Below, piece after piece: positions 9,619 to 36,127 of a stretch of DNA of 64,000 nucleotides. The notes below the pieces were generated by a model. It did no database searches and was not told the DNA's origin. It saw only the letters and a program-made list of their open reading frames with translations. A program made the translations under genes and the position numbers. This DNA is from Cupriavidus metallidurans CH34 (lineage in GTDB: Bacteria; Pseudomonadota; Gammaproteobacteria; Burkholderiales; Burkholderiaceae): assembly GCF_000196015.1 (NCBI RefSeq), contig NC_007974.2, positions 1,922,001 to 1,986,000 of the forward strand, written 5' to 3'. The number at the start of each line of letters is the position of its first letter. Position 1 is the stretch's first letter.

Positions 9619-10551
9619 ATGCCGCCAGGACTCCCCCGTTCGTCCGCCCCGTCCACACCTTCCGCCGGCCCGCTGCAGCGTCTGCGCAACCAGGCCGGCG
9701 CGCAGGTCCGCGCCCTGACGCGCAGCAACTCCGGGCTGACGCTCGACTACGACAACCCACCCGGAGACCCCGGCCTGTTCGGGCCGGACGCGGTCTGCTG
9801 GCGCGTTCATTCCGATTTCCCGGCGATGCTGGCCGGGGGTGTCAGCGCGCTGCTGCTGCAGGCGCTCCATCCGCTGGCATTGGCGGGCGTCTGGGACCAC
9901 TCCACATTTCGCACCGACATGCAGGGCCGGCTCGGGCGAACGGCGCAGTTCATCGCAGGCACCACGTACGGCAGCCATGCCGACGCCATGGCGCTGATCG
10001 AGCGCGTGCGCCGCATCCATGCCTGCATCAAGGGCACCGCGCCCGATGGCCAGCCCTACGCCGCCGACGACCCGGCGCTGCTGACGTGGGTACACGTGGC
10101 CGAAGTGTCGAGCTTTCTGACGGGATACCTGCGCTATGTCGGGCCGCTCTCCGCAGCCGAGCAGGATCGTTACTTCGAGGAAGAAGCCAGGGTCGCCGCG
10201 CTGCTTGGCGCGCCGGACGTGCCGCGCTCCCGCGCGGAGATCGACGCCTATCTGGAGGCGCAGCGGCCGCTGCTGGTCAATAGCGAGCGCACCCGCGAAG
10301 TCGTTCAACTGGTCATGACGATGCCGGTGGCCAATCCGCTGCTGATACCGGCGGTACGGACCATGGCCGATGCGGGTGTGGCGCTGCTGCCGCCCTGGGC
10401 GCGCCAGATGCTCGGCCTGCACCGGCCATCGCTGCGCCGCTCGCTGGCATTGACCGGCATGCGCGCGCTGGCACCCACGCTGCGCTGGGCGCTTGGCCCA
10501 GGGCTGGCGGCGCGCGCGCGTCGACGCGTGGCTAATCTTCCGAAGAAATGA
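9619..10551 (+). CDS. MpaB/Lcp-type oxygenase domain protein (former DUF2236)
   Basis: 310 residues. The family features are visible: FGPDAVCWRVHSDFPAML, then LLLQALHPLALAGVWDHS, then a helical core with DPALLTWVHVAE. Family members are heme-dependent oxygenases or dehydrogenases, including latex-clearing protein and fungal MpaB. The conserved histidines in QALHPLA and TWVHVAE are candidate heme ligands. The natural substrate is unknown. It follows cioB by 49 bases and may be in the same transcript. The ATG at 9619 is in frame, yet the best ribosome site (GAGGAGG) is spaced for an out-of-frame ATG at 9611. The exact start is therefore uncertain. Confidence 0.8.
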   Translation: MPPGLPRSSAPSTPSAGPLQRLRNQAGAQVRALTRSNSGLTLDYDNPPGDPGLFGPDAVCWRVHSDFPAMLAGGVSALLLQALHPLALAGVWDHSTFRTDMQGRLGRTAQFIAGTTYGSHADAMALIERVRRIHACIKGTAPDGQPYAADDPALLTWVHVAEVSSFLTGYLRYVGPLSAAEQDRYFEEEARVAALLGAPDVPRSRAEIDAYLEAQRPLLVNSERTREVVQLVMTMPVANPLLIPAVRTMADAGVALLPPWARQMLGLHRPSLRRSLALTGMRALAPTLRWALGPGLAARARRRVANLPKK

Positions 10552-10691
10552 TGATTTTCAGTCACTTTTATCGCGGCACCGAAGAAGCCTGCTGAACGAC
10601 CCCAATTCGAATTGACTGATTTTTTGGCTTCTCCTCCGTACTTTAGTCAGTAGAGGCAGGACGCATCATGCTGGCGTAATCCGTCCAGGCG

Positions 10692-13085
10692 ATGCCCATG
10701 TCCTTGTCCTTGTCCAGTCCCGAAGTCTCGGAAGTCCTACCTCAGGCGCAGCAGCAGGAGCAGGATGTCCTGCTGATTCTGCAAAGCGCTCTTGAGTTAC
10801 AGCAAGCCGGCGCTTATGAGGATGCGCGGGCCCTGTACGAGATCATCATCGGCGCCGTGCCAATGCACGCCGATGCCCAATATGGCTACGCGATGCTCAA
10901 GGTGCAGATGGGCGAACCGGCGGACTCGCTGCGTAACTTCGAGGTCGCCCTCGGCCTCAGCCCCGACAACCGGCACTATTGGGTCAACTACATCAGCGCG
11001 CTGTTCCAGAGCGGCCAGGCATCCGCTGCCTGGATCGCACTCGATCTCGCGCAGCAGCGCGGGGTCAAGGGCCCCGACCTCGATTGGCTGATCACGCAAA
11101 TGGCGCGGTCGAATGCGTCGCCGGCGCCGGCTGCTGTGGCAATGCCTGCCACCACACCCAATGGCACCACGCCGGCCGCCACGCCTGGCGCCCCGGATCA
11201 AGCCGTCGGCAACGCATCCGGCACAGCCACCGCGAGCGGCGACAAGCGCAAGGCGCCATCCTCGAAAGTGAACAAGGTCAACGCCTTGATCCAGGACCGG
11301 CAACTTGAGGAAGCGATAGCGTATGCCCGCGGCCTGACGGCCGAGTACCCGTCAGATGGCACGGCATGGGGCGCACTCGGCCTTGCCCTGCATCAGGTAG
11401 GACACTTTCAGGATATCGTCGACGCAGCCAGTCGCTCGGTGGAACTGCAGCCCAACGACCTGGTGATCCGCAGACTGCTTGCCAACGCATTACGCGAAAT
11501 CGGCCGCCTGTCGGAATCCGAAGCACATTGCCGCCACATTCTCTCGACGGCCCCGGACGACGCCAACACACTATGGCACCTCGGGAGCGTACTGCACTGC
11601 CAGAAGCGGTATGACGAAGCGGCCGTCGCTGGCCGGCGTGCTGTCGAACTTGCGCCCAATAACGCGCTGGCCCACCTCAGCTTCGGCATGGTGCAGATCG
11701 ACAGGGGCCAGGTAGCCGAGGCCCTTGGGCATCTGCAAACGGCGATTGAGCTTGACTCGAACAATACCAAGAACAACAGTGCCGTTCTGTTCCGCCTGAC
11801 CCACTGCGATGCCATTGATACGGCAACCCTGACCGAAGCGCATTTCGCCTATGGCAAGCGGAACGCGATCCGGACCAGCCCGAAGCGGCACGCGAACGTC
11901 CCCGACCCCCGTCGAAAGCTCCGGATCGGGCTTGTATCCGGTGATCTCTACAACCATGCTGTCAGTACGTATCTTGGGGCCGTTGTCGAGTATCTGGCGA
12001 AGGACCCGAGTGTCTCGCTGCACTTCTACTACAACTTCACGATCGAAGACGAGGTCACCAGTTTCCTGCAAGCGCACGCGGCATCGTGGACGGTCGTGAC
12101 CAGGATGAACGATGTCGGCTTTGCCGCGACGGTCCGCCGCGATGAGATCGACATCCTGATCGACCTGTCAGGCCATACGAACCACAATCGCTTGCCTGCG
12201 TTCGCTCGGAAACCTGCGCCAATCCAGGTGACATGGCTTGGATATCCGGCGACGACCGGACTCGACGCCATGGACTATTTCCTGGCCGACCGCCACAGCA
12301 CACCACCAGGACTATTTGACGCGCAGTTCAGCGAGAAGATCGTCCTGCTGCCAGCAGTCGCGCCCTATTGCCCGACTGCCGCCTCCCCACCTGTCAACAC
12401 CCTGCCTGCCCTGCACAAGGGTTACATCACCTACGGCAGCTTCAATCGGCTGAACAAGGTAAGCCGGCAGGTCGTCGCGCTCTGGGCAAGAATCCTGCAC
12501 GCAGACCCGAGCGCGCGAATGATCATCGGTGCCATCGAGGGCGATGCAGACCAGCAGACCTGTCTCACCAGGTTTGCCGATGAAGGCATCGACGCCGGGC
12601 GCCTGTCGTTCCGTACCCGGACCGAGACACCGGTGTACCTCCAGCAGCACCATCACGTCGACATCTGCCTTGACACGTTCCCCTACACCGGGGCAACCAC
12701 GACAATCAATGCGCTATGGATGGGCGTACCCACGGTAACCATCGCAGGCAACAGCCCGCTGAGCCGCGGCAGCGCTAGCTGGCTCGGTCAGCTAGGACTC
12801 CATCAGTACATCGCGAACGACGCAGACGACTTCGTCCAACGCGCGCTTGCCCTGTCGAAGGACCTGGATGCGTTGAAGCAGCTACGCGCCACCCTGCGCG
12901 AGCGTTGCATGCACGCGACGTCGATCCAGCCCGCGAACGTCGCGTCCAGCCTGTCCCTTGCGCTACGCGCGATGTGGGAACGCTGGTGCGCGGGCCAGGC
13001 GCCCGATAGCTTCGAAATCGAACCGGTTCAGAACACGGTTGCACCCGCCGCAGCCAGCGAGCACGCGCTCCAGCCCGTCACGTAA
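10692..13085 (+). CDS. TPR-containing SPINDLY/O-GlcNAc-transferase family glycosyltransferase (Glyco_transf_41)
   Basis: 797 residues, probably cytoplasmic. Residues ~25-125 and ~195-365 are tetratricopeptide repeats, separated by an Ala/Pro/Thr-rich linker at ~130-190. The C-terminal half is the OGT catalytic region: IGLVSGDLYNHAV, ILIDLSGHTNHNRL, PIQVTWLGYPATTGLDAMDY, YGSFNRLNKVS and LDTFPYTGATTTINALWMG. Such enzymes transfer a nucleotide-activated sugar to Ser/Thr of a protein recognised by the TPRs. As I recall, the Burkholderia cenocepacia flagellin glycosyltransferase FlmQ is of this kind. It heads a nine-gene operon for a modified sugar, and flagellin (fliC, 17 kb away) is the likeliest acceptor. 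ATGs at 10692 and 10698 are both possible. Confidence 0.85.
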   Translation: MPMSLSLSSPEVSEVLPQAQQQEQDVLLILQSALELQQAGAYEDARALYEIIIGAVPMHADAQYGYAMLKVQMGEPADSLRNFEVALGLSPDNRHYWVNYISALFQSGQASAAWIALDLAQQRGVKGPDLDWLITQMARSNASPAPAAVAMPATTPNGTTPAATPGAPDQAVGNASGTATASGDKRKAPSSKVNKVNALIQDRQLEEAIAYARGLTAEYPSDGTAWGALGLALHQVGHFQDIVDAASRSVELQPNDLVIRRLLANALREIGRLSESEAHCRHILSTAPDDANTLWHLGSVLHCQKRYDEAAVAGRRAVELAPNNALAHLSFGMVQIDRGQVAEALGHLQTAIELDSNNTKNNSAVLFRLTHCDAIDTATLTEAHFAYGKRNAIRTSPKRHANVPDPRRKLRIGLVSGDLYNHAVSTYLGAVVEYLAKDPSVSLHFYYNFTIEDEVTSFLQAHAASWTVVTRMNDVGFAATVRRDEIDILIDLSGHTNHNRLPAFARKPAPIQVTWLGYPATTGLDAMDYFLADRHSTPPGLFDAQFSEKIVLLPAVAPYCPTAASPPVNTLPALHKGYITYGSFNRLNKVSRQVVALWARILHADPSARMIIGAIEGDADQQTCLTRFADEGIDAGRLSFRTRTETPVYLQQHHHVDICLDTFPYTGATTTINALWMGVPTVTIAGNSPLSRGSASWLGQLGLHQYIANDADDFVQRALALSKDLDALKQLRATLRERCMHATSIQPANVASSLSLALRAMWERWCAGQAPDSFEIEPVQNTVAPAAASEHALQPVT

Positions 13086-13097
13086 GGATCAGCGACC

Positions 13098-14243
13098 ATG
13101 ACAGCCAGCCTTCCGTCGGAATCCGTGCGCGCCCTGCTCGAGGACCGCATCTACGTCACCCAGCCACACCTGCCTCCGCTCGACGAGTTCCTGCCCTATC
13201 TGCAGCAGATCTGGAACTCGCGCGTGTTGACCAATGGCGGGCCGTTTCACCAGCAGTTCGAGCGTGAACTGTGCGAGTACCTTGGCGTCCCTTACCTGTC
13301 GCTGTTCGCCAATGGCACGCTCGCGCTCGTGACGGCGCTACAGGCGCTGCGGATCACGGGAGAGGTCATCACGACGCCATACTCCTTTGTGGCGACGGCG
13401 CACTCGCTGCTGTGGAACGGCGTCAAGCCCGTCTTCGTCGACATCGACCCGCATACGATGAATCTCGATCCGGCAAAGATCGAGGCCGCGATCACACCGC
13501 AGACAACGGCGATCATGCCCGTGCATTGCTACGGCCACCCCTGCGATGTCGACGCGATCCAGAAGATCGCGGACAACTACAACCTCAGGGTGATCTACGA
13601 TGCCGCCCATGCCTTCGGCGTCCGTAACGAAAGCGGCAGCATCCTGAAGCACGGCGACCTGTCGATTCTCAGCCTGCACGCCACCAAGGTCTTCAACACG
13701 TTCGAAGGTGGCGCCATCATCTGCCCCGATGCCAAGACAAAGCAGCGCATCGATCATCTGAAGAACTTCGGTTTTGTCGACGAAGTCACCGTCGTCGCTG
13801 CCGGCATCAACGGCAAGATGAGTGAAATCAACGCTGCGTTTGGGCTGCTGCAGTTGCAGCACATCGACGAGGCGCTCGAGCGCCGCAAGGCGATCGATGC
13901 ACGCTATCGCGAACTGTTGCGCAACATCCCCGGCATTCGTTGCCAGGCGGATGCCGGCGAAACCACAGCCAACTACGCGTACTTCCCCATTCACGTCGAA
14001 GCTGACTACCCGATCAGCCGGGATGCCCTGTTTGACAAGTTCCGCGAGCAAGGTATCTTCGCTCGGCGCTACTTCTATCCGCTGATCTCGGATTTCCCGA
14101 TGTATCGCGGCCTGCCGTCCGCCAGCCGCCATAACTTGCCCATTGCATCGGAGGCGGCGCTGAAGGTGCTGTGCCTGCCGATCTATCCGGCGCTCACTGA
14201 AGAGCAAGTTCAGCGCGTCGTGAGCATCATCGCGGAGCATTGA
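13098..14243 (+). CDS. DegT/DnrJ/EryC1/StrS sugar aminotransferase (VioA/FdtB-like)
   Basis: 381 residues, full length for the family. The PLP-binding features are intact: FANGTLALVTAL, YDAAHAFGV with the PLP-ring aspartate, and the Schiff-base lysine (about K197) in LHATKVFNTFEGGAI. The N-terminal VTQPHLPPLDEFLPYLQQIW followed by LTNGGPFHQQFE resembles enzymes that aminate dTDP-4-keto- or 3-keto-6-deoxyhexoses, so viosamine-type sugars are plausible. No dTDP-glucose synthase or dehydratase genes are nearby; they would have to be supplied from elsewhere. It follows the glycosyltransferase by 12 bases. Confidence 0.88.
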   Translation: MTASLPSESVRALLEDRIYVTQPHLPPLDEFLPYLQQIWNSRVLTNGGPFHQQFERELCEYLGVPYLSLFANGTLALVTALQALRITGEVITTPYSFVATAHSLLWNGVKPVFVDIDPHTMNLDPAKIEAAITPQTTAIMPVHCYGHPCDVDAIQKIADNYNLRVIYDAAHAFGVRNESGSILKHGDLSILSLHATKVFNTFEGGAIICPDAKTKQRIDHLKNFGFVDEVTVVAAGINGKMSEINAAFGLLQLQHIDEALERRKAIDARYRELLRNIPGIRCQADAGETTANYAYFPIHVEADYPISRDALFDKFREQGIFARRYFYPLISDFPMYRGLPSASRHNLPIASEAALKVLCLPIYPALTEEQVQRVVSIIAEH

Positions 14244-14245
14244 GC

Positions 14246-14947
14246 ATGCGGCTGGCAATCATGCAGCCCTATCTGTTCCCGTACCTCGGCTACTTCCAGC
14301 TAGCGGCATCGGTGGACCGTTTCGTGGTCTACGACGATGTCACGTTCATCAAGAATGGCTGGATCAACCGGAACCGCATCCTGCTCGCCAGCGCCCCACA
14401 CTACCTGACCGTACCACTGGCGGGAGCCAGCTCGTCGCGCCGGATCGACGAGGTCCGCACACAGCCTCGCGAACGTTGGCTGGGGAAGCTGCTCGAGCAA
14501 CTCCGCCACGCTTATGGGCGCGCGCCGCAATACGTACCGGTCAGCCGGCTGGTCGAGCAGGTGCTCTCCGACAGTACGGATTCGATCGCACGGCTCGCGG
14601 CGAAAAGCGTGATCGACACCTGCGCATACCTCGGCCTGGAGACAACGTTCGTGACGACGTCAACCGGCTACGGCAACGAAGCGCTCAGGAGCGAAGCGCG
14701 TGTTATCGATATCTGCGCTCGCGAACACGCAGGTACCTATGTGAATCTACCTGGCGGCCGCGCACTCTACGATGCTGGCACCTTCGCCGCTGCCAGCATC
14801 GACCTGGAGTTCGTCGATACGGCGCTTCCTGCGTATCCGCAGTTCGGCGCGCCGTTCGTTCCCGGCCTGTCGATCATCGACGTGCTGATGTTCAATCATG
14901 TCGAATCCGTCCACGCAATGCTTTCCCGAGAGGCCATCACCGCATGA
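14246..14947 (+). CDS. WbqC-like family protein
   Basis: 233 residues beginning MRLAIMQPYLFPYLGYFQL, the hallmark of the WbqC family. Further typical stretches are DDVTFIKNGWINRNRIL and YVNLPGGRALYD. WbqC proteins occur in O-antigen and glycan loci, often next to DegT-type aminotransferases. They are thought to act in acylation or amide formation on the amino-sugar, but no mechanism is firmly established to my knowledge. The ATG at 14246 lies two bases after the previous stop. The TTG two codons earlier is less likely. Its stop overlaps the next gene's ATG. Confidence 0.85.
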   Translation: MRLAIMQPYLFPYLGYFQLAASVDRFVVYDDVTFIKNGWINRNRILLASAPHYLTVPLAGASSSRRIDEVRTQPRERWLGKLLEQLRHAYGRAPQYVPVSRLVEQVLSDSTDSIARLAAKSVIDTCAYLGLETTFVTTSTGYGNEALRSEARVIDICAREHAGTYVNLPGGRALYDAGTFAAASIDLEFVDTALPAYPQFGAPFVPGLSIIDVLMFNHVESVHAMLSREAITA

Positions 14948-15918
14948 ACACGGACGCGATAGGCGGCTACCTCGGCCTGGAATTGCCGCAGTACGGTCAG
15001 GAGTGGTATCCGCAAGCACTGCGCTTCCAATCGGCGCGCGCGGCATTCCTGGCTCTACTTCGCACACACGCACCGGCAGCCGTCTGGGTACCCTGGTATC
15101 TGTGCGACAGCATGCTCGAACCACTTCGGAGTGCGGGCTCGATAGTCAAGCGATACGCGCTGCGGCACGACCTCGGTTGCCCCGATATCGCGCTCGCCGA
15201 TGGCGAGTGGCTGCTATACGTCAACTACTTCGGTGTATGCGATCGCCACGTGGACGATGTGCTCGCGCGCTTTCCACACGAACAGGTGATCATCGACAAT
15301 GCCCACGCGTTCTTCTCGGCGGCGCGTGACAACCTGGCGACGATTTACTCACCGCGCAAGTTCGTCGGCGTACCGGATGGCGGATACCTCGCGACACGCG
15401 CATCGGTGGAGCTTCCCGAAGTGACCGACGATGGCTCGGTAGCCCGTAGCAGCCACCTGCTGAAGCGACTAGCGGGTGGCGCCGAATCCGGCTATGCGGA
15501 CTATGCCGCCGCGGAGTGCAGCCTGGAGTGGCAGGAACCGCGCCGTATGTCACCGCTCACGCAGCGCCTGCTCGCAGCGATCGACTATCCGGAAATCCGC
15601 GCGCGGCGTGCGTCCAATTTCTCCTTTCTCCATGAATGCCTGAGCAGGCATAACAGCCTGACGCTTGCAGCGGCTCACGATTGCGCGCCGCTTTGCTACC
15701 CATTCCTGGGCGCGCCGCAGGGCCTGCGCGAAGCATGGCGGTCCCAACGCATATACAGCGCAACCTATTGGCCTGACCTCGAGCAAAGCCAGGACATGCC
15801 AGAGTTCGAGCGGAGCCTGCCGCGCAACACGCTCTTCATTCCCTGCGACCAGCGTCTTTCGCCCGAGCAGTTGGCTCCGCTTGCCCGGCAGGTCCTGGAG
15901 TACCGCGACCGTCAATGA
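14944..15918 (+). CDS. DegT-like PLP-fold protein of the glycan operon
   Basis: 324 residues, starting at an ATG that overlaps the WbqC stop (ATGA). An upstream extension of the frame exists but lies entirely inside the WbqC gene. The fold is recognisable from IIDNAHAFFSA (equivalent to the aspartate-bearing DAAH of DegT enzymes) and SPRKFVGVPDGG (equivalent to the lysine loop), so PLP binding looks intact. The sequence is otherwise divergent and shorter than typical DegT enzymes. With a canonical aminotransferase two genes upstream, it may install a second amino group or act in a non-transaminase role. Function unassigned. Confidence 0.7.
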   Translation: MNTDAIGGYLGLELPQYGQEWYPQALRFQSARAAFLALLRTHAPAAVWVPWYLCDSMLEPLRSAGSIVKRYALRHDLGCPDIALADGEWLLYVNYFGVCDRHVDDVLARFPHEQVIIDNAHAFFSAARDNLATIYSPRKFVGVPDGGYLATRASVELPEVTDDGSVARSSHLLKRLAGGAESGYADYAAAECSLEWQEPRRMSPLTQRLLAAIDYPEIRARRASNFSFLHECLSRHNSLTLAAAHDCAPLCYPFLGAPQGLREAWRSQRIYSATYWPDLEQSQDMPEFERSLPRNTLFIPCDQRLSPEQLAPLARQVLEYRDRQ

Positions 15919-15943
15919 TGGTCCCGAATTGACAAACATATTC

Positions 15944-16723
15944 ATGAACACGAACCTTGCCAGGCACGAAGCCGAACTCGAATCCCAGGGTTGGACAGTG
16001 GTCCCGCGACTGATCCATGAGGAACTCGTCGGCGCGCTGAACCACGCCCTTGTTCCGTCGCTGAACAAGCGTGACGCGATCCGCACGGCAAATGGTCTGA
16101 TGGAAAACTGTCAGGGCACCGCTCACCACGTGCTTTCCGACGACCGCTGCTATGTCGAACTGCTGGCGAAATTCGAAGCGCTCGATCCCATCGTCAAATG
16201 GTTCTTCGGCGGCAACTACATCCTGAACTCGTACGGCGGCTTCATCAACGACGGCAAGACCTACGCCCACGACGTTCACAGGGATATCCGCTTTCATTCG
16301 AACGCCAAGCGCTTCATGCTGAATACGCTGGTGATGCTCGACGAGTTCACCGAGCCGAATGGCGCGACCCATATTCTTTCCGGTTCCCAGCATCAGCCCG
16401 AGAGGCCGTCCAACGACACGTTCTTTCGTGATGCGGCGCGCGTGACAGGCGAGCGCGGCTCGGTCTTGCTGTTCGACTCCCGAATCTGGCACGCCGCCGG
16501 AGAGAACACGACAAATCTTCCCAGAAGGGCGTTGACGCTGACGTTCACCTGCCCCTTCTTCAAACCGCAGCTCGACTATCCGAGGCTCATGGCCAGCTCC
16601 GGCGTCTCGACCCTCACGCCATTCCTCCGGCAGGTGATCGGTTTCAACGCCCGGGTGCCCGCGTCCCTCGAGGAGTTCTACGTACCGGTCGAGCAGCGCT
16701 TCTATCAACGCGGACAGGACTGA
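15944..16723 (+). CDS. phytanoyl-CoA dioxygenase (PhyH)-type Fe(II)/2-oxoglutarate hydroxylase
   Basis: 259 residues. The jelly-roll iron site is visible: HRD in DVHRDIRFHSN (the HxD pair), the distal histidine in SRIWHAAGENTT and the 2-oxoglutarate arginine in LPRRALTLTF. NGATHILSGSQHQPE is typical of the family. Such enzymes hydroxylate unactivated carbons with O2 and 2-oxoglutarate. In this operon the substrate is probably the sugar or an acyl substituent on it. The ATG at 15944 is 25 bases after the previous stop, and the next gene follows after only four bases. Confidence 0.85.
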   Translation: MNTNLARHEAELESQGWTVVPRLIHEELVGALNHALVPSLNKRDAIRTANGLMENCQGTAHHVLSDDRCYVELLAKFEALDPIVKWFFGGNYILNSYGGFINDGKTYAHDVHRDIRFHSNAKRFMLNTLVMLDEFTEPNGATHILSGSQHQPERPSNDTFFRDAARVTGERGSVLLFDSRIWHAAGENTTNLPRRALTLTFTCPFFKPQLDYPRLMASSGVSTLTPFLRQVIGFNARVPASLEEFYVPVEQRFYQRGQD

Positions 16724-16727
16724 CATC

Positions 16728-17465
16728 ATGAGCCGAGATTACAACGCCGAAGCCAAGGACCATCCCGAACACAGCTACGCCTACGCCTTCGACTACCTGA
16801 TGCATGAGTACATGCTCAAGACGTTCGGGCCATCCATGGTGGCCGGGAACGCGCTCGAGCTTGGTTGCTTCGAAGGACATTTCACGCAGCGCCTGCTCGG
16901 GCACTTTGCCACGGTCGACGTCGTCGAGGCGTCTTCCGACTGCATCGAGGTCGCCGCGTCCAAGACAGGCGAGGCGGCAACGTTCTATCACTCGACGTTC
17001 GAAACATTCGAACCCAAGAAGAAGTACGACAATATCTTCCTGATCCATACGCTCGAGCATCTCGACGAACCTGTCGAAGTGCTGTCCCGCATCCGCCAAT
17101 GGTTGTCGGAGCGTGGCCGCCTGTTCGTTGCGACGCCGAACGCGCGGGCCGGGTCGCGCCAGATTGCCGTCAACATGGGATTGATCCGCCATGCGGCGGC
17201 CGTCACACCCGCTGAAGCCGCGCACGGCCATCGCGTCACCTATTCGCTGGACACGCTGAAGGCAGACCTGTGCGACGCGCAGCTGCAACCGGTCACTCAC
17301 GGCGGCATCATCTTCAAGGGCTTGGCGAACTTCCAGATAGACGCCGCACTGAAGGCAGGCATCATCTCCAGGGAGTATCTCGATGGATGCTTCGAGTTGG
17401 GACGGGTCTACCCGGATCTGTGCTCGAGCATCTACGTGATCTGCGAGCGCGGCGACACCGCCTGA
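16728..17465 (+). CDS. class I SAM-dependent methyltransferase (Methyltransf_23-like)
   Basis: 245 residues with SAM-binding motif I ALELGCFEGHFT, an acidic residue ending strand beta-2 (VDVVEAS) and a motif LIHTLEHLDEP ahead of GRLFVATPNA. The N-terminal YNAEAKDHPEHSYAY is unusual for general methyltransferases but recurs in glycan loci. It probably O- or N-methylates the sugar or its side chain. It is embedded in the operon with 4- and 11-base gaps on either side. The acceptor is unknown. Confidence 0.82.
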   Translation: MSRDYNAEAKDHPEHSYAYAFDYLMHEYMLKTFGPSMVAGNALELGCFEGHFTQRLLGHFATVDVVEASSDCIEVAASKTGEAATFYHSTFETFEPKKKYDNIFLIHTLEHLDEPVEVLSRIRQWLSERGRLFVATPNARAGSRQIAVNMGLIRHAAAVTPAEAAHGHRVTYSLDTLKADLCDAQLQPVTHGGIIFKGLANFQIDAALKAGIISREYLDGCFELGRVYPDLCSSIYVICERGDTA

Positions 17466-17476
17466 AGTCAGACTGA

Positions 17477-18766
17477 ATGAATGCGTCCATGAACAAGAAA
17501 CTGAAGGTCCTGGTTTTCCCTTGCGGCTCGGAGAACGCAGCCGAGATCCACCAGGCGCTCAGGTATTCGTTGCATGTCGAGCTGTTCGGCGCATCCAGCG
17601 TGGACGACCACGGCCGCTTTCGCTTCGAACGGTACGTTGGCGGGTTGCCGAAGATCAGCGACGCCGAATTCGACAGCACCTTCTCGCGGCTTCTTGTCGA
17701 ACTCGACATTGATGTCGTCTTCGCAACGCACGACTCCGTGCTCGACTATCTCGCGCCGCGCGCCCCTGGAATGGGCGTCACGCTGATCAATGGCGACCCG
17801 CAGACCGCGGCCATCGCGCGGCGCAAGAGCGCCACCTACGCGTGCTTTCGCGATGCCGACTGGGCGCCGCACATGTTCGAGTCGGTCGAGGCGGTGAAAG
17901 CGTGGCCGATCATCGTCAAGCCTGATCTTGGACAGGGCGGCCAGGGCGTGACGCTGGCAAACGATCCGCAACAGGCTCGCGCGGCGATGGACGCGATGCA
18001 GTTCCCGGTCCTGGTCGAGTACCTTCCGGGCGAAGAAATCACCGTGGATTGCTTCACGGACCGCAAACGGCGGCTCGTCTGGACCGGACCGCGTACCCGC
18101 GAACGAGTGCGGGCAGGCATCACCATGCGCTCCCGCTTGCTGGCGCTGTCCCCTGAGATCGAAGGCATCGCCCGCGAGATCAATCAACGCCTGCAGCTCC
18201 GCGGACCGTGGTTCTTCCAGCTCAAGGCGGACAAGGATGGCCGCTGGAAGCTTCTCGAGATTTCATGCCGCGTTGCCGGCACGATGGTCGCGCAGCGCGC
18301 GCGCGGCGTGAACCTGCCGCTGATGGCGGTGCAGGATCACCTCGGCCGCGATCTGGTCGCGCTGGACAATCCGCACGTCAACCTGGTGGAGCGGAGTATC
18401 GCCACGCGTACACGTCTGGATTTCGCCTACGACTCTGTCTTCGTCGATCTCGACGACACCCTGGTGCTGAACGGACATGCCGTGCCGCAAACCATGGCGT
18501 TCCTGTATCAGTCCAAGGCGGACGGCAAGAAAGTGAACCTGATCACCCGGCACGCGTTCGATGTCGCTCAGACACTCGAGAAGGCCCATATCAGCCGCGG
18601 CATCTTCGATCAGATCATCGTGATCACCGACGGCGGCTCAAAGGCCGACCATTTCTCACCTGACTCAATCTTTATCGACAATCATTTTCCCGAGAGACTC
18701 GAGGTCGCGAGAAAGCTCGCAATCCCCGTTCTCGATGTGGACATGGTCGAGTTCCTTATCAAGTAG
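17477..18766 (+). CDS. ATP-grasp ligase fused to a HAD-like phosphatase domain
   Basis: 429 residues in two parts. Residues ~1-310 form an ATP-grasp ligase of the CarB/biotin-carboxylase type: VLVFPCGSENAAEI at the start, IVKPDLGQGGQGV as the ATP loop, LVEYLPGEEITVDCF and KLLEISCRVAGTMV. Residues ~315-429 resemble a HAD hydrolase: FVDLDDTLVLNG holds the DxD nucleophile pair, followed by LITRH and a late acidic motif SIFIDNHF. ATP-grasp enzymes couple a carboxylate to an amine through an acyl-phosphate, so it may attach an amino-acid-like or acyl group to the amino-sugar. The HAD part may remove a phosphate. A second ATG at 17489 is a possible start. Confidence 0.82.
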   Translation: MNASMNKKLKVLVFPCGSENAAEIHQALRYSLHVELFGASSVDDHGRFRFERYVGGLPKISDAEFDSTFSRLLVELDIDVVFATHDSVLDYLAPRAPGMGVTLINGDPQTAAIARRKSATYACFRDADWAPHMFESVEAVKAWPIIVKPDLGQGGQGVTLANDPQQARAAMDAMQFPVLVEYLPGEEITVDCFTDRKRRLVWTGPRTRERVRAGITMRSRLLALSPEIEGIAREINQRLQLRGPWFFQLKADKDGRWKLLEISCRVAGTMVAQRARGVNLPLMAVQDHLGRDLVALDNPHVNLVERSIATRTRLDFAYDSVFVDLDDTLVLNGHAVPQTMAFLYQSKADGKKVNLITRHAFDVAQTLEKAHISRGIFDQIIVITDGGSKADHFSPDSIFIDNHFPERLEVARKLAIPVLDVDMVEFLIK

Positions 18767-18775
18767 ACGGAACCC

Positions 18776-19540
18776 ATGGAAAAGACATCTCCCGATTTTC
18801 TGGCTGTGCTGCGCACGGAGCGAAGAGATCTGTTGAACCGGATGCGGCAGACCCGATTCGAATCGCTCAGGGAAGGGTGCAGCCACTCTCAGGTCATCCC
18901 CTTTGCCACCTTTTCACCGTGGCTCGATGACGAGGCATTCTCCGCCATCTACGAGATCGTCAAGCCGTTCACCATGGTGGACATCTACCGCTGCTACGAG
19001 CTTTACAGTCTTGCGCGGCAATGCCGTCGCGTTGCCGGCGAGATCGTCGAAGTCGGTGTATGGCGGGGCGGTACCGGTGCGTTGATGGCTCATGCCTTGA
19101 ACAACCGGCCGGTGCATCTGTTCGATACCTTCAGCGGCGTCGTCAAGCACGATGCCGAGTTCGATACGCTCTACTCGGGTGGAGAGCACGCCGACACCGA
19201 CGAAGACATCGTGCGGAGCCTGTTTGCGAAGGCCAACGTGGAATGCCGGATCCACCGCGGCATCTTCCCGGACGACACGTTGCAAGGTCTGCCGGCATCG
19301 ATCTGCCTCGCGCATATCGACGTCGACACTTACCGCTCCGTCAAGGAGTCGTTCGCGGAAATCTGGCCGCGGGTTCAGCCGGGCGGCATGGTCGTATTCG
19401 ATGACTTTGCCGTATTCGGCTGCGAAGGCGCGAACCAGGCCGTCAACGAAATCGTCGCGGCCCACGATGACGGGCTGTTCATTCACAACCTCAACGGCCA
19501 CGCCCTGCTCGTCAAGCAACCCGCGATGGCCCGCTCCTGA
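18776..19540 (+). CDS. TylF/macrocin-O-methyltransferase-like SAM methyltransferase
   Basis: 254 residues. VDIYRCYELYSLA followed by GEIVEVGVWRGGTGALMA, then HLFDTFSG, and later LAHIDVDTYRSVKESF and PGGMVVFDDF match the TylF family. These are metal-assisted O-methyltransferases acting on sugar hydroxyls of antibiotics and surface glycans. The motif DVDTY and the aspartates in FDDF are the expected metal ligands. It follows the ATP-grasp gene by nine bases. The sugar position methylated cannot be told from sequence. Confidence 0.85.
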   Translation: MEKTSPDFLAVLRTERRDLLNRMRQTRFESLREGCSHSQVIPFATFSPWLDDEAFSAIYEIVKPFTMVDIYRCYELYSLARQCRRVAGEIVEVGVWRGGTGALMAHALNNRPVHLFDTFSGVVKHDAEFDTLYSGGEHADTDEDIVRSLFAKANVECRIHRGIFPDDTLQGLPASICLAHIDVDTYRSVKESFAEIWPRVQPGGMVVFDDFAVFGCEGANQAVNEIVAAHDDGLFIHNLNGHALLVKQPAMARS

Positions 19541-19586
19541 GCGGTCTGGTGTACCCGACGAACAGTTCCGCAGCACGACTCCGATC

Positions 19587-20282
19587 ATGAAAAGAATCGC
19601 CCACTACCAGTACCTGGAGTATGTCCGCGTCATGTCGCTGATGCGGCAGTATCAGGCCGCAAGCGCAAAGCCGCTACGCGTGCTGGACTTCGGCTGCGGA
19701 CTCGGGAAATTCCTGAACGTCTTCGCAAGCCTGGGCATGGAGGTCACCGGCGTCGACGCGAATCCGGCCTACGTCGCGGGCGCCCGCGAAAAGGGCTTCC
19801 AGGCCTACGAGCCGGAGGCCTTCTTCGCCACGACCCAGGACCCATTCGACGTGGTGTTTCTGAGCCATCTCATCGAGCACGTCACGCCGGACGCACTCGT
19901 CGCACTGGTACCCCGCCTCTGCGCGCAACTGGCAAGGAACGGCCGCATGATCATGCTGAGCCCAACGCCCGGCGAGCGCTTCTATCACGATTTCTCGCAT
20001 ATCCGCCCGTACCTGCCGCAGAGCATCCGGCACGCGTTCGGCGCAACCGGCATGCCGATTTCCTATGGCGAAGCCGGCCTGCTTGAAATGGTCGACATTC
20101 ACTTCTTCAAGGACCCCTATCGCACGCGCCTGTGGCGGTCCTTTTACGTCAACCGTGGCATCAAGGGCGCGTTCACACGCCAGTACAACCGCCTCCTCGA
20201 TGTACTGTGGAGCGCATCCGGCGGCCGGGTCGGCAAGACAGCGTCGTGGCTCGGGGTGTACGAACTGCGCGCACGTAGCTGA
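19587..20282 (+). CDS. class I SAM-dependent methyltransferase, last gene of the glycan operon
   Basis: 231 residues. Motif I is VLDFGCGLGKFLNVF, strand beta-2 ends in VDANP, and FLSHLIEHVTPDAL precedes RMIMLSPTPGE. The last ~60 residues (SFYVNRGIKGAFTRQY and onward) are basic and aromatic and may contact the substrate or the membrane. The start is the ATG at 19587, 46 bases after the previous stop. A longer overlapping frame begins inside the TylF-like gene and is rejected. A strong GC hairpin follows the stop, ending the operon against the convergent MFS gene. Confidence 0.82.
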   Translation: MKRIAHYQYLEYVRVMSLMRQYQAASAKPLRVLDFGCGLGKFLNVFASLGMEVTGVDANPAYVAGAREKGFQAYEPEAFFATTQDPFDVVFLSHLIEHVTPDALVALVPRLCAQLARNGRMIMLSPTPGERFYHDFSHIRPYLPQSIRHAFGATGMPISYGEAGLLEMVDIHFFKDPYRTRLWRSFYVNRGIKGAFTRQYNRLLDVLWSASGGRVGKTASWLGVYELRARS

Positions 20283-20285
20283 ATG

Positions 20286-20309
20286 GCGGACGCGGGCAAC
20301 CCGCGCCGC
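20286..20309. terminator. GC hairpin between convergent genes
   Basis: A ten-base-pair stem with one bulged A (20286-20296 against 20300-20309) encloses a CAA loop in the 28 bases between the methyltransferase stop and the MFS stop. No T-run follows, so it may need Rho or simply protect both 3' ends. Confidence 0.45.
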
Positions 20310-20310
20310 A

Positions 20311-21852
20311 TCACTCGGCAGCGGCGGACGCCGCTGCCCCGGCCGGGCTGCCGCGCAGCGTCTTCTCCTTGAGCCGCATGACGAAGAACGGCGCGATCAA
20401 CGACACGCCCGCGCTCATCAGGAACAGCAGGCGGAAGGCATGCTCCGCCGCCTCGCGCACCGCGGCAGCATCGCCCTGATCCCCCGCATCCATGGCCCGC
20501 CGGAACATGCTCATCAGCACATCCTCGCCGCCATGCAGGTCACTGACCGCCATGCCGCTATGGCGTAGCAGCGCGATCAGCACCGTGGTCAGCACCGCCA
20601 CGCCCACTGCGCCACCAAGCAGGCGCGAGAAGGCGGTCAGCGCGGTGGCGATGCCAACCTGCTGCGGCGGCACCGAGTTCTGCGTGGCCACCAGCCCGCT
20701 CGGCAGTTGCAGGCCGATTGACAGGCCCAGGACGATCATCACCAGCGCGGCCGGCACCACCGCCTGCGGCGGCACAAAGGCCAGCCCGACGATGGCAATC
20801 GGCGCCACCAGACAGCCAGCCAGTTGCAGCGGCTTGTAACGCCCGCTCCACGACATCAGCCGGCCCGACGCATAGGCGCCGAACGGAATGGCCAGCGTCA
20901 GCGGCACCAGCCGCAGCGCGGCGGTGTCGGCCCCCGCGCCGCCCACGACCTGGAAGCGCAGCGGCAGCAGCACCGACATCGCGATCAACTGGAAGAAGCA
21001 CAGGAACAGCGTCAGGCAGCAGATCGCGACGGTCGGCACGGCGAGCATCTTCAGCGGAATCACCGGGTCGACGGCACGCCGCTCCTGCCAGATGAAAAGC
21101 ACCAGACCGATCAGCCCGGCAGCCAGCAGGCCGATCGTCTGCGGCTCCAGCGGCGAGTGGCCCTGCCCCATCCGCGTCAGGAACACCAGCACGCCGGACA
21201 GGCCGCCACCAAACAGCAGCGCGCCAAGGTAGTCGATGCGATGCTTGCGTCCGCTGACCGGCAGATGCCGCAGCGCCCGGCGCACCACGATCAGCGCGAT
21301 CAGCCCCAGCGGAATGTTGATCCAGAAAATCCAGCGCCATGAGAGGAAGTGCGCAAGGTAGCCGCCAATCACGGGCCCGGCCATGCTGGCCACGGCCCAG
21401 ACGCCGCTGACGTAGCCCTGGTACTTGCCGCGTTCACGTAGTGGCACCACGTCGGCGATCGTTGCTTGCGATACCGAGATCAGGCCGCCACCGCCAAGGC
21501 CCTGCAGAATGCGCGCAACGATCAGCATCGGCATCGTCGTAGCCATCGCGCAGGCGATCGACGCCAGCACGAACAGCACGATCGAGAACGTCAGCACCGA
21601 GCGGCGCCCGAGCACGTCGGACAGCTTGCCGTAGATCGGCGTAACCACGGTGGACGCCACCAGATAGGCGGAGATCACCCACGCCATGTCCTCGAAACCG
21701 TTGAGCTGCAAGGCGATCTCGGGCAGGACCACGGCCACGATCGATTGTTCGAGGGCACCCAGCATGATGGCCAGCATCAGGCCGAAGATAACCTGCATCA
21801 CGGGCACGTCTGGGGGTGAATGCGGGGCGGAGGGCGCTTGCGGAGCGGACAT
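20311..21852 (-). CDS. DHA2-family MFS multidrug efflux transporter (EmrB/QacA type)
   Basis: 513 residues with about 14 hydrophobic segments, the DHA2 topology. Family motifs include LEQSIVAVVLPEIA in helix 1, YGKLSDVLGRRSVL between helices 2 and 3 (motif A), RILQGLGGGGLI, and the helix-5 antiporter motif GPVIGGYLAHFLSWRWIFWI. It should expel hydrophobic drugs or metabolites in exchange for protons. The frame continues upstream to a TTG at 21939, but the ATG at 21852 fits the family length better. No periplasmic adaptor (EmrA) gene is beside it. The substrate is unknown. Confidence 0.9.
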   Translation of the reverse strand: MSAPQAPSAPHSPPDVPVMQVIFGLMLAIMLGALEQSIVAVVLPEIALQLNGFEDMAWVISAYLVASTVVTPIYGKLSDVLGRRSVLTFSIVLFVLASIACAMATTMPMLIVARILQGLGGGGLISVSQATIADVVPLRERGKYQGYVSGVWAVASMAGPVIGGYLAHFLSWRWIFWINIPLGLIALIVVRRALRHLPVSGRKHRIDYLGALLFGGGLSGVLVFLTRMGQGHSPLEPQTIGLLAAGLIGLVLFIWQERRAVDPVIPLKMLAVPTVAICCLTLFLCFFQLIAMSVLLPLRFQVVGGAGADTAALRLVPLTLAIPFGAYASGRLMSWSGRYKPLQLAGCLVAPIAIVGLAFVPPQAVVPAALVMIVLGLSIGLQLPSGLVATQNSVPPQQVGIATALTAFSRLLGGAVGVAVLTTVLIALLRHSGMAVSDLHGGEDVLMSMFRRAMDAGDQGDAAAVREAAEHAFRLLFLMSAGVSLIAPFFVMRLKEKTLRGSPAGAAASAAAE

Positions 21853-28931: not shown

Positions 28932-28958
28932 CTATCGGCGGCGTCGCGGGCGGACTTA
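28932..28958 (-). promoter_or_regulatory. sigma-28 (FliA) promoter candidate for the chemoreceptor
   Basis: Read on the minus strand: TAAGTCCG (28958-28951), 11 bases, then GCCGATAG (28939-28932). The -10 element matches GCCGATAA at seven of eight positions and the spacing is the standard 11. The -35 is weaker. It lies 73 bases upstream of the chemoreceptor ATG. Chemoreceptor genes are commonly FliA-dependent. Confidence 0.6.
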
Positions 28959-30186: not shown

Positions 30187-30213
30187 TAAAGTCTCCCCCT
30201 GCCCGGTCGATAA
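30187..30213 (+). promoter_or_regulatory. sigma-28 (FliA) promoter of fliC
   Basis: TAAAGTCT (30187-30194), 11 bases, GTCGATAA (30206-30213). This is nearly identical to the consensus TAAAGTTT-N11-GCCGATAA. It lies 97 bases upstream of the fliC ATG, leaving an untranslated leader of roughly 90 bases. Confidence 0.88.
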
Positions 30214-30309: not shown

Positions 30310-31506
30310 ATGGCGCAAGTCATTAATACCAACTCGTTGTCTCTGATGACTCAGAACAACCTGAACACGTCGCAATCGGCGCTGAACACCGCCATTCAGC
30401 GACTGTCGTCGGGTCTGCGCATCAACAGCGCAAAGGACGATGCAGCCGGCCTGGCCATCGCCAGCCGCTTCACGTCGAACATCAACGGCCTGACCGTTGC
30501 CCAGCGTAACGCCAACGACGGCATCTCGCTGGCGCAAACGACGGAAGGCGCGCTGACCGAAGTCACGAACAACCTGCAGCGTATCCGCGACCTGTCGGTG
30601 CAAGCCGCCAACGGTTCGAACTCGGCTTCGGACCTGAAGTCGATCCAGGACGAAATCACGCAGCGTATGTCGGAAATCGACCGCCTGTCGGCCCAGACCG
30701 ACTTCAACGGCGTGAAGGTGCTGTCGTCGACCGCCAAGAGCGTGAACATTCAGGTTGGCGCGCAAGACGGCCAGACCATCGCTGTGAACCTGCAGGAAAT
30801 CAGCACGAAGACGCTGGGCCTGAACAGCTTCAACGTGAACGGCCCGCAAGGCGCCGTCACCGCCGCCACCGCTGCCAACTTCCAGAAGGTCTTCGGTAGC
30901 TCCACCACGTTCACGACGTCGTCGATCACGGAAGCCGTCGGCGGCACGCTGGCCACGACCCTGGGTATCAGCTCGAGCAGCGTGGCCATCGGCAACCAGG
31001 CCATGGTTGACGCGAACGGCAACTGGTTCGCACAAGTCACCGTCACGCCGGCGTCGGCCACGGAAGCTCAGGCACTGAAGAACCAGGGCATGACCACCGC
31101 AACCAGCGGCTCGGCCATGACCATGTACGTTGCACTGAACCCGAACTCGACGACGAGCACGACGGGCGCGACGGCATCGTTCACGCTGAACACCACTGGC
31201 GTGACCGCTTCCACCCTGACGGGCAGCGCCTCGGCCAACCCGCTGGCCACGCTCGACAACGCCCTGCAAACGGTGAACAGCCTGCGCAGCTCGCTGGGTG
31301 CTATCCAGAACCGTCTGGATTCGACGATCTCGAACCTGGGCACGACCATCACCAACCTGTCGTCGTCGCGCTCGCGCATTCAGGATGCTGACTACGCAAC
31401 GGAAGTGTCGAACATGACCCGCGCGAACATCCTGCAACAAGCTGGTACCTCGGTGCTGGCTCAAGCGAACCAGACCACGCAAGGCGTGCTGTCGCTGCTG
31501 CGTTAA
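30310..31506 (+). CDS. fliC: flagellin
   Basis: 398 residues. Residues ~1-170 and the last ~100 are the conserved D0/D1 helices: MAQVINTNSLSLMTQNNLN, RLSSGLRINSAKDDAAGLAI at the start, and ADYATEVSNMTRANILQQAG to QGVLSLLR at the end. The central ~130 residues are the surface-exposed variable domain, rich in Thr and Ser (for example TSTTGATASFTLNTTG), and would be the place for O-glycosylation. Secreted through the flagellar export apparatus and polymerised as the filament. An AGGAG site precedes the ATG, a sigma-28 promoter lies upstream, and a hairpin terminator follows. Confidence 0.97.
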   Translation: MAQVINTNSLSLMTQNNLNTSQSALNTAIQRLSSGLRINSAKDDAAGLAIASRFTSNINGLTVAQRNANDGISLAQTTEGALTEVTNNLQRIRDLSVQAANGSNSASDLKSIQDEITQRMSEIDRLSAQTDFNGVKVLSSTAKSVNIQVGAQDGQTIAVNLQEISTKTLGLNSFNVNGPQGAVTAATAANFQKVFGSSTTFTTSSITEAVGGTLATTLGISSSSVAIGNQAMVDANGNWFAQVTVTPASATEAQALKNQGMTTATSGSAMTMYVALNPNSTTSTTGATASFTLNTTGVTASTLTGSASANPLATLDNALQTVNSLRSSLGAIQNRLDSTISNLGTTITNLSSSRSRIQDADYATEVSNMTRANILQQAGTSVLAQANQTTQGVLSLLR

Positions 31507-36057: not shown

Positions 36058-36087
36058 TCCGGCGCATCGCCGGATCCTTGCTGAATA

Positions 36088-36114
36088 CGCCCGGCCAATT
36101 GATTAGGCCGGGCG
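36088..36114. terminator. bidirectional hairpin between flhB-like gene and fliE
   Basis: A perfect nine-base-pair stem, CGCCCGGCC (36088-36096) with GGCCGGGCG (36106-36114), closes a nine-base AT-rich loop. It lies in the 70 bases between two convergent genes. No T-run is present on either strand. Confidence 0.6.
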
Positions 36115-36127
36115 ATCCTGATCGTCA

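Follow-up and report, generated by a model that had tools for sequence, protein, structure and literature searches.

The flagellin glycosylation islands of the Enterobacteriaceae, defined by De Maayer and Cowan (2016; PMC4875605) as lying between fliC and fliA, are described there as horizontally acquired and highly variable. In Pseudomonas syringae pv. tabaci, VioA, VioS, VioR, an acyl carrier protein (ACP) and VioB have been reported to make N-(3-hydroxybutanoyl) viosamine, acylated on N4, which is then methylated by VioM and transferred by VioT (1,173 aa), and the viosamine genes are required for the flagellin glycan (PMC3927599). The type B flagellin of C. difficile has been described as carrying Fuc3N that bears a taurine-Ala-Gly amide and terminates a GlcNAc-Rha-Rha chain, and the glycan of an ATP-grasp mutant ends before this terminal peptidylamido sugar, the precise role of the gene being left open by the authors (PMC5207245, PMC5207246). 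In Gram-negative flagella, glycine and N-acetylglutamine have been reported as ester-linked to pseudaminic acid (PMC5207245). Here, we analyse a block of nine genes, g1 to g9, in Cupriavidus metallidurans CH34 (assembly GCF_000196015.1), a soil bacterium tolerant of metals. The block lies in a stretch of 64,000 nucleotides (contig NC_007974.2, positions 1,922,001 to 1,986,000), hereafter the window, to which all coordinates refer. The window is part of chromosome 2 (2,580,084 bases) of a genome of 6,913,352 bases in four contigs, the other large contig having 3,928,089 bases.

We consider it probable that the block, acquired horizontally, serves as a flagellin glycosylation island and works through the pathway proposed below. 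It is very likely an operon whose products glycosylate flagellin with a viosamine-based sugar, its acyl and tailoring set being unusual and little studied, and flagellin is the likely acceptor of the sugar transferred by g1.

Gene content of the block

Positions 10692-20282 hold nine reading frames, all open and all on the + strand. The initial annotation had described nine genes in one orientation with gaps of -4 to +46 bases, and the coordinates and measured gaps from g1 to g9 (12, 2, -4, 25, 4, 11, 9 and 46 bases) agree with this. The first gene, g1 (10692..13085; 797 aa), encodes an OGT/SPINDLY-class protein O-glycosyltransferase and is the proposed flagellin transferase. It possesses both the TPR repeats and the catalytic domain of GT41 members (Glyco_transf_41, PF13844; 159 bits against a cut-off of 25), its nearest solved structural relative is SPINDLY, followed by 5djs, and it carries the motifs FNRLNK and LGYP, which we take to be catalytic. 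It is 44% identical over 782 aa to a TPR protein encoded beside flagellin-fliD-fliT in Burkholderia glumae. The product of g2 (13098..14243) is a VioA/DesI-type sugar 4-aminotransferase of the DegT family (PF01041, 344 bits), the best NCBIfam model being DesI at 306 bits, under its cut-off of 650. It shares 74% identity with the annotated vioA product of B. glumae and 78% with a VioA-type enzyme of Trinickia, both encoded near flagellin, and its Lys197 is invariant in 25 aligned sequences (the window plus 24 of 56 length-filtered DegT relatives). Since g2 is VioA-like, the base sugar that it makes is likely dTDP-viosamine (dTDP-Qui4N).

The third gene, g3 (14246..14947, with an alternative TTG start at 14240), encodes a WbqC family protein (PF08889, 233 bits), for which a search of solved structures gave no significant relative; its alignment comprised the window and 33 of 35 matches (L059 and L068 omitted). 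The product of g4 (14944..15918; 4-base overlap with g3) had no match in Pfam or NCBIfam, nor any in Pfam even at E up to 10. A profile-profile comparison with DegT proteins (hhalign) gave E 1.1e-4 and a probability of 57%, colinear over 299 columns with the pyridoxal phosphate (PLP)-type Asp and Lys aligned, and Asp118 and Lys139 are invariant in 29 sequences (the window plus 28 of 30 matches, the Pseudomonas rows L051 and L068 being omitted). Two DegT-fold proteins had initially been annotated; this stands for g2, and g4 is probably the second, a PLP protein.

The remaining genes encode predicted tailoring enzymes and a ligase. The PhyH-family hydroxylase predicted from g5 (15944..16723; PF05721, 62 bits), presumably of the Fe(II)/2-oxoglutarate type, keeps the HxD motif and the distal His (HRD at 112, WHAAGEN at 182). 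Both g6 (16728..17465) and g9 (19587..20282) encode class-I S-adenosylmethionine (SAM) methyltransferases (PF13489), and g8 (18776..19540) a TylF-type O-methyltransferase (PF05711, 75 bits) that matches the deoxysugar O-methyltransferases TylF, NovP and MycF, its solved relatives including NovP and mycinamicin III 3''-O-methyltransferase (E 1e-9 to 1e-11). The glycine-rich SAM motif was found in g6 (ELGCFEG) and g8, and g9 was not matched by the pattern used. The product of g7 (17477..18766) is an ATP-grasp ligase (PF15632, 73 bits, above cut-off; ATP-grasp_4 just under cut-off) fused to a HAD-type domain, the C-terminal HAD-like half scoring weakly (Cof-type, E 7e-4; Hydrolase_6, E 0.026). 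Its nearest solved relatives are 2pn1 and the L-amino acid ligase 3vot (E 1.5e-4), and the ATP-grasp and HAD residues Lys148, Glu181, Glu261, Asp324, Asp326, Lys389 and Asp401 are invariant in 31 sequences (the window plus 30 of 64 g7 relatives). We assume that the conserved residues of g2, g4, g5 and g7 are catalytic, as in their families. Among the nine genes, Pfam and NCBIfam detected no KASIII, ACP or acyltransferase domain.

Flagellin linkage, insertion and ancestry of the block

Only one further locus with the full set of nine genes was found, in Trinickia mobilis; the gene order is that of CH34, and the identities for g1 to g9 are 44, 78, 58, 55, 71, 77, 74, 70 and 74%. There, fliC-fliD-fliS-fliT-OGT-VioA-WbqC-g4-PhyH-g6 lie on one strand (L266), g7-g8-g9 are found on the same contig (L045), and extra genes, one of which encodes an aminotransferase class-V domain, separate OGT from VioA. 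The search for g7 in the genome collection kept the best 80 of 172 relatives, 24 of them with at least 50% identity. Among the neighbours of these 24 were homologues of DegT (21), WbqC (19), g4 (15), g8 (10), g9 (9), OGT (8), PhyH (2) and g6 (2), and FliC lay within 10 kb in 16 of the 24, where the density of flagellin genes, taken from ten of the genomes, would predict 0.23. In L045, L050 and L064, flagellin is ~11 to 16 kb from g7 on the same contig, so that 19 of the 24 closest relatives are within 16 kb of flagellin. No flagellin link was seen within 16 kb of g7 in L047, L048, L049 and L063, and L055 is a 5-kb contig. The co-occurrence with fliC for which the initial annotation had proposed a neighbourhood search is observed. 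Its statement that the gene complement goes beyond known flagellin systems does not hold for the ATP-grasp/HAD gene, which, judged by these neighbourhoods and by the ATP-grasp gene of C. difficile, is not unique to the CH34 block. The set of PhyH and three methyltransferases is rare, homologues of g5, g6, g8 and g9 having been found together only in Trinickia L045 and in L048, a contig of a metagenome-assembled genome (MAG), among the best 80 of 172 g7 relatives.

Other flagellin-linked loci hold parts of this set. In Enterobacter sp. L056 the order is fliC-OGT-DegT-WbqC-g4-g7-FkbM-sigma factor; L057 resembles it by position and L054 has the same genes in a different order. In Stutzerimonas L060, a GT2 protein of 1,176 aa takes the place of the OGT, as do open frames of similar length in further Pseudomonas loci. 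A Neisseriales MAG has split modules, with g7-g8-g9-PhyH-g6 in L048/L037, WbqC-g4 in L186 and VioA in L248, the last ~200 bases from a FliD match. In Burkholderia multivorans (L062:10001-11965), the g7 and g8 homologues are each matched in two pieces, so that the frames look broken unless the draft sequence is faulty.

The block is located between an MpaB-like gene and a convergent major facilitator superfamily (MFS) gene, which abut in three relatives compared at the DNA level. In blastn comparisons with these Cupriavidus relatives (L175, L170 and L172), alignment to the window breaks off after 10532 and resumes at 20342, 20310 and 20333, respectively, with 66-94 unaligned bases at the junction compared with ~9.8 kb in CH34, the inserted block covering 10533..20341. 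Among 30 MpaB loci (a set that includes CH34, from 56 positive genomes), 15 have an MFS gene directly downstream and convergent, the other 14 relatives being differently arranged or truncated by the end of the stretch. Within the genus, g7 was found in one of 60 genomes, CH34 itself, and within the order in three of 300, CH34 included. The G+C content is 60-63% in the block genes and 67-70% in both direct neighbours. Considering the precise insertion, the restriction of g7 to CH34 in the genus and the foreign OGT lineage described below, we conclude that the block is horizontally acquired, in one piece. One precise insertion, together with the identical nine-gene order in T. mobilis, further indicates that these genes do not stand together by chance. 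A phage or viral origin was rejected, as no relative of g7 was found in viral_contigs (pattern scan) or in the phage collection. Another Cupriavidus relative (G326, L262:13961-14395) has a fragment between cydA and the MpaB-like gene that matches only the first 146 residues of g1 (46%), in a genome without an OGT match at E 1e-40; it may be what is left of an older island close to this site.

Counting CH34, 33 of the 60 genomes of the genus gave an OGT match (E 1e-40 or better). Of the other 32 genomes, 21 carry the OGT no more than 28 kb away from the MpaB-like gene, on one contig with it; in the remaining 11, the two are on different draft contigs (7) or far apart or on different replicons (3), or the MpaB match is lacking (1). 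In all eight loci in which both were read, the OGT is within ~10 kb of fliC or fliD. It adjoins an flhB-like gene in seven of these eight relatives (L042, L043, L044, L170, L172, L174 and L175), with fliE seen past it in L042, L043 and L044, and in L041 it is beside fliE. In CH34, the corresponding slot between the flhB-like gene and fliE, defined by comparison with the eight relatives, is empty and measures 70 bases (36058..36127). With the OGT of L175 as a tblastn query, g1 was the only match above chance in the window, and the whole CH34 genome gave two PF13844 matches, both halves of g1. In a tree of 40 OGT rows, 12 of the 14 resident Cupriavidus rows form one clade (support 100/99) and L041 and L042 fall elsewhere, with a relative of the order. 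On the other hand, g1 is sister to the OGTs of B. multivorans and B. glumae, which are encoded after fliC-fliD (support 100/96). From the short slot, the single GT41 gene and this placement it follows that CH34 lacks the resident transferase and has a foreign one instead.

The residents are not uniform in their sugar genes. In L041 and L042, the resident OGT is accompanied by a DegT gene 77-78% identical to g2, so that the genus has a resident of the VioA type as well. The ten slot proteins from four other genomes comprise RmlC-type epimerases, FkbM methyltransferases, C-methyltransferases and NAD-dependent epimerases, with one protein lacking a match, and these families suggest that the residents of those four genomes use another dTDP sugar.

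Based on the insertion, the empty resident slot, the sole GT41 gene, the ancestry of g1 and the Trinickia locus, we regard flagellin as the likely acceptor, in support of the earlier idea that an amino-deoxy sugar from a VioA-type aminotransferase is moved to flagellin by an OGT-class enzyme. The proposed acceptor gene, fliC (30310..31506, +), is labelled on the basis of its Flagellin_N profile match (151.6 bits); the labels of the other neighbours (cydA, MpaB-like, MFS, methyl-accepting chemotaxis protein (MCP), LysR, FliD, FliS, FliT, FliK-like, FlhB-like, FliE and FliF) are our reading of the sequences. A sigma-28-like site with one mismatch is found upstream of fliC (30187..30213, +) and another, with two mismatches, upstream of an MCP-like gene (28932-28958, -). 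The pattern scan gave 14 matches with up to three mismatches against 14.5 expected by chance, the fliC site being the sole one-mismatch match. In the CH34 genome, further Flagellin_N matches occur at G000:C4:287223 and G000:C3:2344159 (frames of 421 and 633 aa), possibly FlgL or a second flagellin. A literature search, in which subscription literature is little covered, found no paper linking WbqC to flagellin glycosylation or modification; by title, none of the eight matches for Cupriavidus flagellin glycosylation concerned Cupriavidus flagellin, and the name FlmQ, given in the initial annotation for a Burkholderia flagellin transferase, did not occur in the 15 papers listed of 96 matching ones, so that this mention stays unconfirmed.

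At the 3' end of the block, a G+C-rich hairpin follows g9 (20286..20309, +) and a second one lies within the convergent MFS gene (20317-20338). Together they fold with -42.7 kcal/mol (positions 20275-20345; z -3.7). The operon had been said to end in a hairpin, which is real, yet it lacks a T-run and was not picked by a terminator scan of the window.

Proposed pathway and rival explanations

The domains, the insertion, the empty slot, the g1 ancestry, the flagellin linkage in relatives and the pairing of modules are all read in the DNA itself. From these we infer a pathway, with all of its reactions and their sequence, the nucleotide of the donor and the acceptor, as follows. The host RmlA and RmlB would provide dTDP-4-keto-6-deoxyglucose (rmlB is present in the CH34 genome with 513.6 bits, in a search that did not include rmlA), which g2 would convert to dTDP-viosamine. 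The ATP-grasp half of g7 would then acylate the 4-amino group with an amino or hydroxy acid, replacing the usual acyl-carrier module, and its HAD half may take a phosphate off the substrate or product. The WbqC protein (g3) and g4 may prepare or modify the acyl part or the sugar. A hydroxyl introduced by g5 would be methylated by g6, and g8 and g9 would methylate other positions, g8 probably a ring hydroxyl. Finally, g1 would transfer the completed sugar from dTDP to Ser/Thr residues of FliC in the cytoplasm, before export.

The pairing of modules was counted in 125 stretches (L229, on the same contig as L115, was dropped). WbqC adjoins a DegT gene in 41 of its 62 matches and g4 adjoins WbqC in 27 of 37. 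A DegT gene of any similarity is directly beside g7 in 28 of 84 matches; in L254, L257 and L038, seen among the VioA loci treated below, g7 is beside VioA without WbqC or g4. Next to g7, g8 occurs in 10 of 11 matches (L062 counted twice), and g9 is beside g8 in 8 of 10. PhyH is beside a g6 homologue in all six other loci that have it (five in the 125 stretches, plus L265), seven counting CH34, and this constant adjacency fits a hydroxylation by g5 followed by O-methylation by its proposed partner g6. As 13 of 18 g6 matches are without a PhyH neighbour, g6 also has other partners. Altogether, amidation, hydroxylation and three methylations of the sugar appear plausible from these genes. In L241 (10845-12758), WbqC and g6 are separated by two adjacent genes (320 and 315 aa) that gave weak, below-cut-off scores to GH43, GH32 and GH130, and similar WbqC-to-g6 gaps occur in L233, L238 and L239; a g4-like nature of the 320-aa gene was rejected, and its 315-aa neighbour was not PhyH-like in a BLASTP comparison.

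The order yielded 44 VioA loci, with WbqC present in 24, KASIII in 2, both in none, neither in 18, and g7 in 4. We read the g7, GNAT and acyl-carrier modules as alternative routes to acylate the sugar amine, and the sugar-building kit appears to be one among several interchangeable versions exchanged by bacteria. The 'swap' of acyl modules is not strict, considering the 18 loci with neither gene, the loci with WbqC and a GNAT acetyltransferase in the place of g7 (L224, L191), and the five Pseudomonas loci that hold both g7 and KASIII, for which reason we rejected their strict mutual exclusion.

These exceptions weigh against the proposal of a flagellin island with an exchangeable acyl module, and they are not the only such points. 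FliC or FliD lies within ~9 kb in only 14 of the 44 VioA loci (30 without), and is nearby in only 4 of the 56 more distant g7 relatives, 23 of which are on stretches shorter than 20 kb. In CH34, 10 kb and unrelated genes lie between the block and fliC, and control of the operon by sigma-28 was rejected, as the scan shows no site upstream of g1. The G+C content as a sign of insertion is weakened by fliC, fliD and cydA, which are also at ~62%. The Ser/Thr-rich FliC middle proposed as the modified region is enriched, yet mildly, with 31% Ser and Thr in residues 171-320 compared with 27% overall and 42% in the richest 60 residues. Furthermore, a Kluyvera locus (L063:538-15496) holds DegT-WbqC-g4-g7 among rmlB, rmlA, rmlD and rmlC-type genes, an ABC-2 exporter, RgpF and 6-phosphogluconate dehydrogenase, in what looks like an O-antigen cluster, so that the g2-g3-g4-g7 quartet is not tied to flagellin. 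Its g3-g4-g7 DNA had no blastn match in 20,395 E. coli records, and no known E. coli O-antigen could therefore serve to identify the acyl group; the O-antigen structure of this Kluyvera, once solved, would tell the product of the quartet.

In the rival explanation that best survives the evidence, flagellin is still the acceptor and the 4-amino group is acetylated by other host enzymes, g7, g3 and g4 acting elsewhere, for instance on a second residue. The GNAT acetyltransferase at WbqC loci is consistent with this, as is the presence of WbqC in many VioA loci of the order but of g7 in few. Nevertheless, the position of g7 next to DegT genes, and next to VioA where WbqC and g4 are lacking, is what is expected for an enzyme acting on the aminotransferase product, and we hold this explanation to be unlikely.

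Alternatively, the pathway could be unchanged and serve a surface polysaccharide, either O-antigen or exopolysaccharide, as the polysaccharide-type locus of Kluyvera, the distance to fliC in CH34 and the lack of a visible flagellar promoter would suggest. We give this little credence, since the block has a protein-type OGT, contains no polymerase, flippase, exporter or lipid-carrier transferase among its nine genes, and has its sole other nine-gene counterpart after fliC-fliD-fliS-fliT. In other organisms, OGT/SPINDLY enzymes act on a wide range of proteins, and with SPINDLY as its nearest solved relative, g1 might modify several proteins, with flagellin among them or not at all. The grouping of g1 with flagellin-linked OGTs, the missing resident flagellar OGT and the status of g1 as sole GT41 gene make such a multi-protein role improbable to a similar degree. 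Least probable is a silent or decayed operon in CH34, since none of the nine frames is interrupted and the catalytic residues that we looked at are conserved, even if fliC is not adjacent and neither the sigma-70 scan nor the sigma-28 scan shows a site that stands out upstream of g1.

If the pathway to a modified viosamine on flagellin is correct, it would have wider meaning. It is possible, though we put it forward as a tentative view that may well prove wrong, that viosamine flagellin islands have exchangeable N-acyl modules (acyl-carrier, acetyltransferase or ATP-grasp/HAD), that of CH34 giving an amino-acyl or peptidyl amide on viosamine which is then hydroxylated and multiply methylated. 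On a Gram-negative flagellin sugar of that class, such an amide-linked cap would be without precedent, and WbqC and g4 would be two uncharted enzymes of the pathway. Flagellin sugars would then be altered by exchanging the acyl-making module around a fixed VioA-transferase core, and in CH34, a tractable host from the environment, the activities of WbqC, the g4 family and the ATP-grasp/HAD fusion could be assigned via simple flagellin mass shifts. An amino-acid cap as such is not new, considering the ester-linked amino acids on pseudaminic acid (PMC5207245); an amide on viosamine would be.

Comparison with known glycosylation systems

The CH34 block resembles the GT41 islands described by De Maayer and Cowan (PMC4875605) in having a GT41/SPINDLY transferase, a DegT aminotransferase and methyltransferases at a flagellar locus, its glycosyltransferase and sugar-synthesis genes being together near the flagellar genes, but it is located 10 kb from fliC and not between fliC and fliA. 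The Enterobacter sp. L056 locus occupies the very slot described for those islands, and the terms ATP-grasp, carbamoyl and phytanoyl do not occur in the main text of that study. O-antigen loci have export or polymerisation genes, none of which is among the nine genes; exporter genes are seen in the Kluyvera locus.

With the type B system of C. difficile, as described in PMC5207245 and PMC5207246, CH34 shares an ATP-grasp gene, a likeness by description only, and a sugar aminotransferase (FdtB-type there, g2 with g7 here). That system also has FemAB-like and ornithine-cyclodeaminase-like genes, both absent from the nine genes of CH34, and GT2 transferases. The likeness to the P. syringae island lies in the VioA-type aminotransferase and, in the pathway proposed for CH34, in N4 acylation and O-methylation. 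Compared with that island as reported (PMC3927599), CH34 is without VioS, VioR, ACP and VioB, has a GT41 transferase of 797 aa instead of VioT, and adds WbqC, g4, the ATP-grasp/HAD fusion, PhyH and three methyltransferases; it is the ~1,176 aa frames of Stutzerimonas L060 and Pseudomonas that resemble VioT.

A related arrangement is that of B. glumae BGR1 (NZ_DQ996271.1), with the order flagellin-fliD-fliT-TPR protein-vioA-KASIII-ACP, where the OGT (44%) and vioA (74%) are found in the same order as in CH34. The flagellin of B. cenocepacia reportedly carries 3-hydroxybutanoyl-viosamine. After vioA, B. glumae BGR1 has the acyl-carrier module at the place where CH34 has WbqC to g9.

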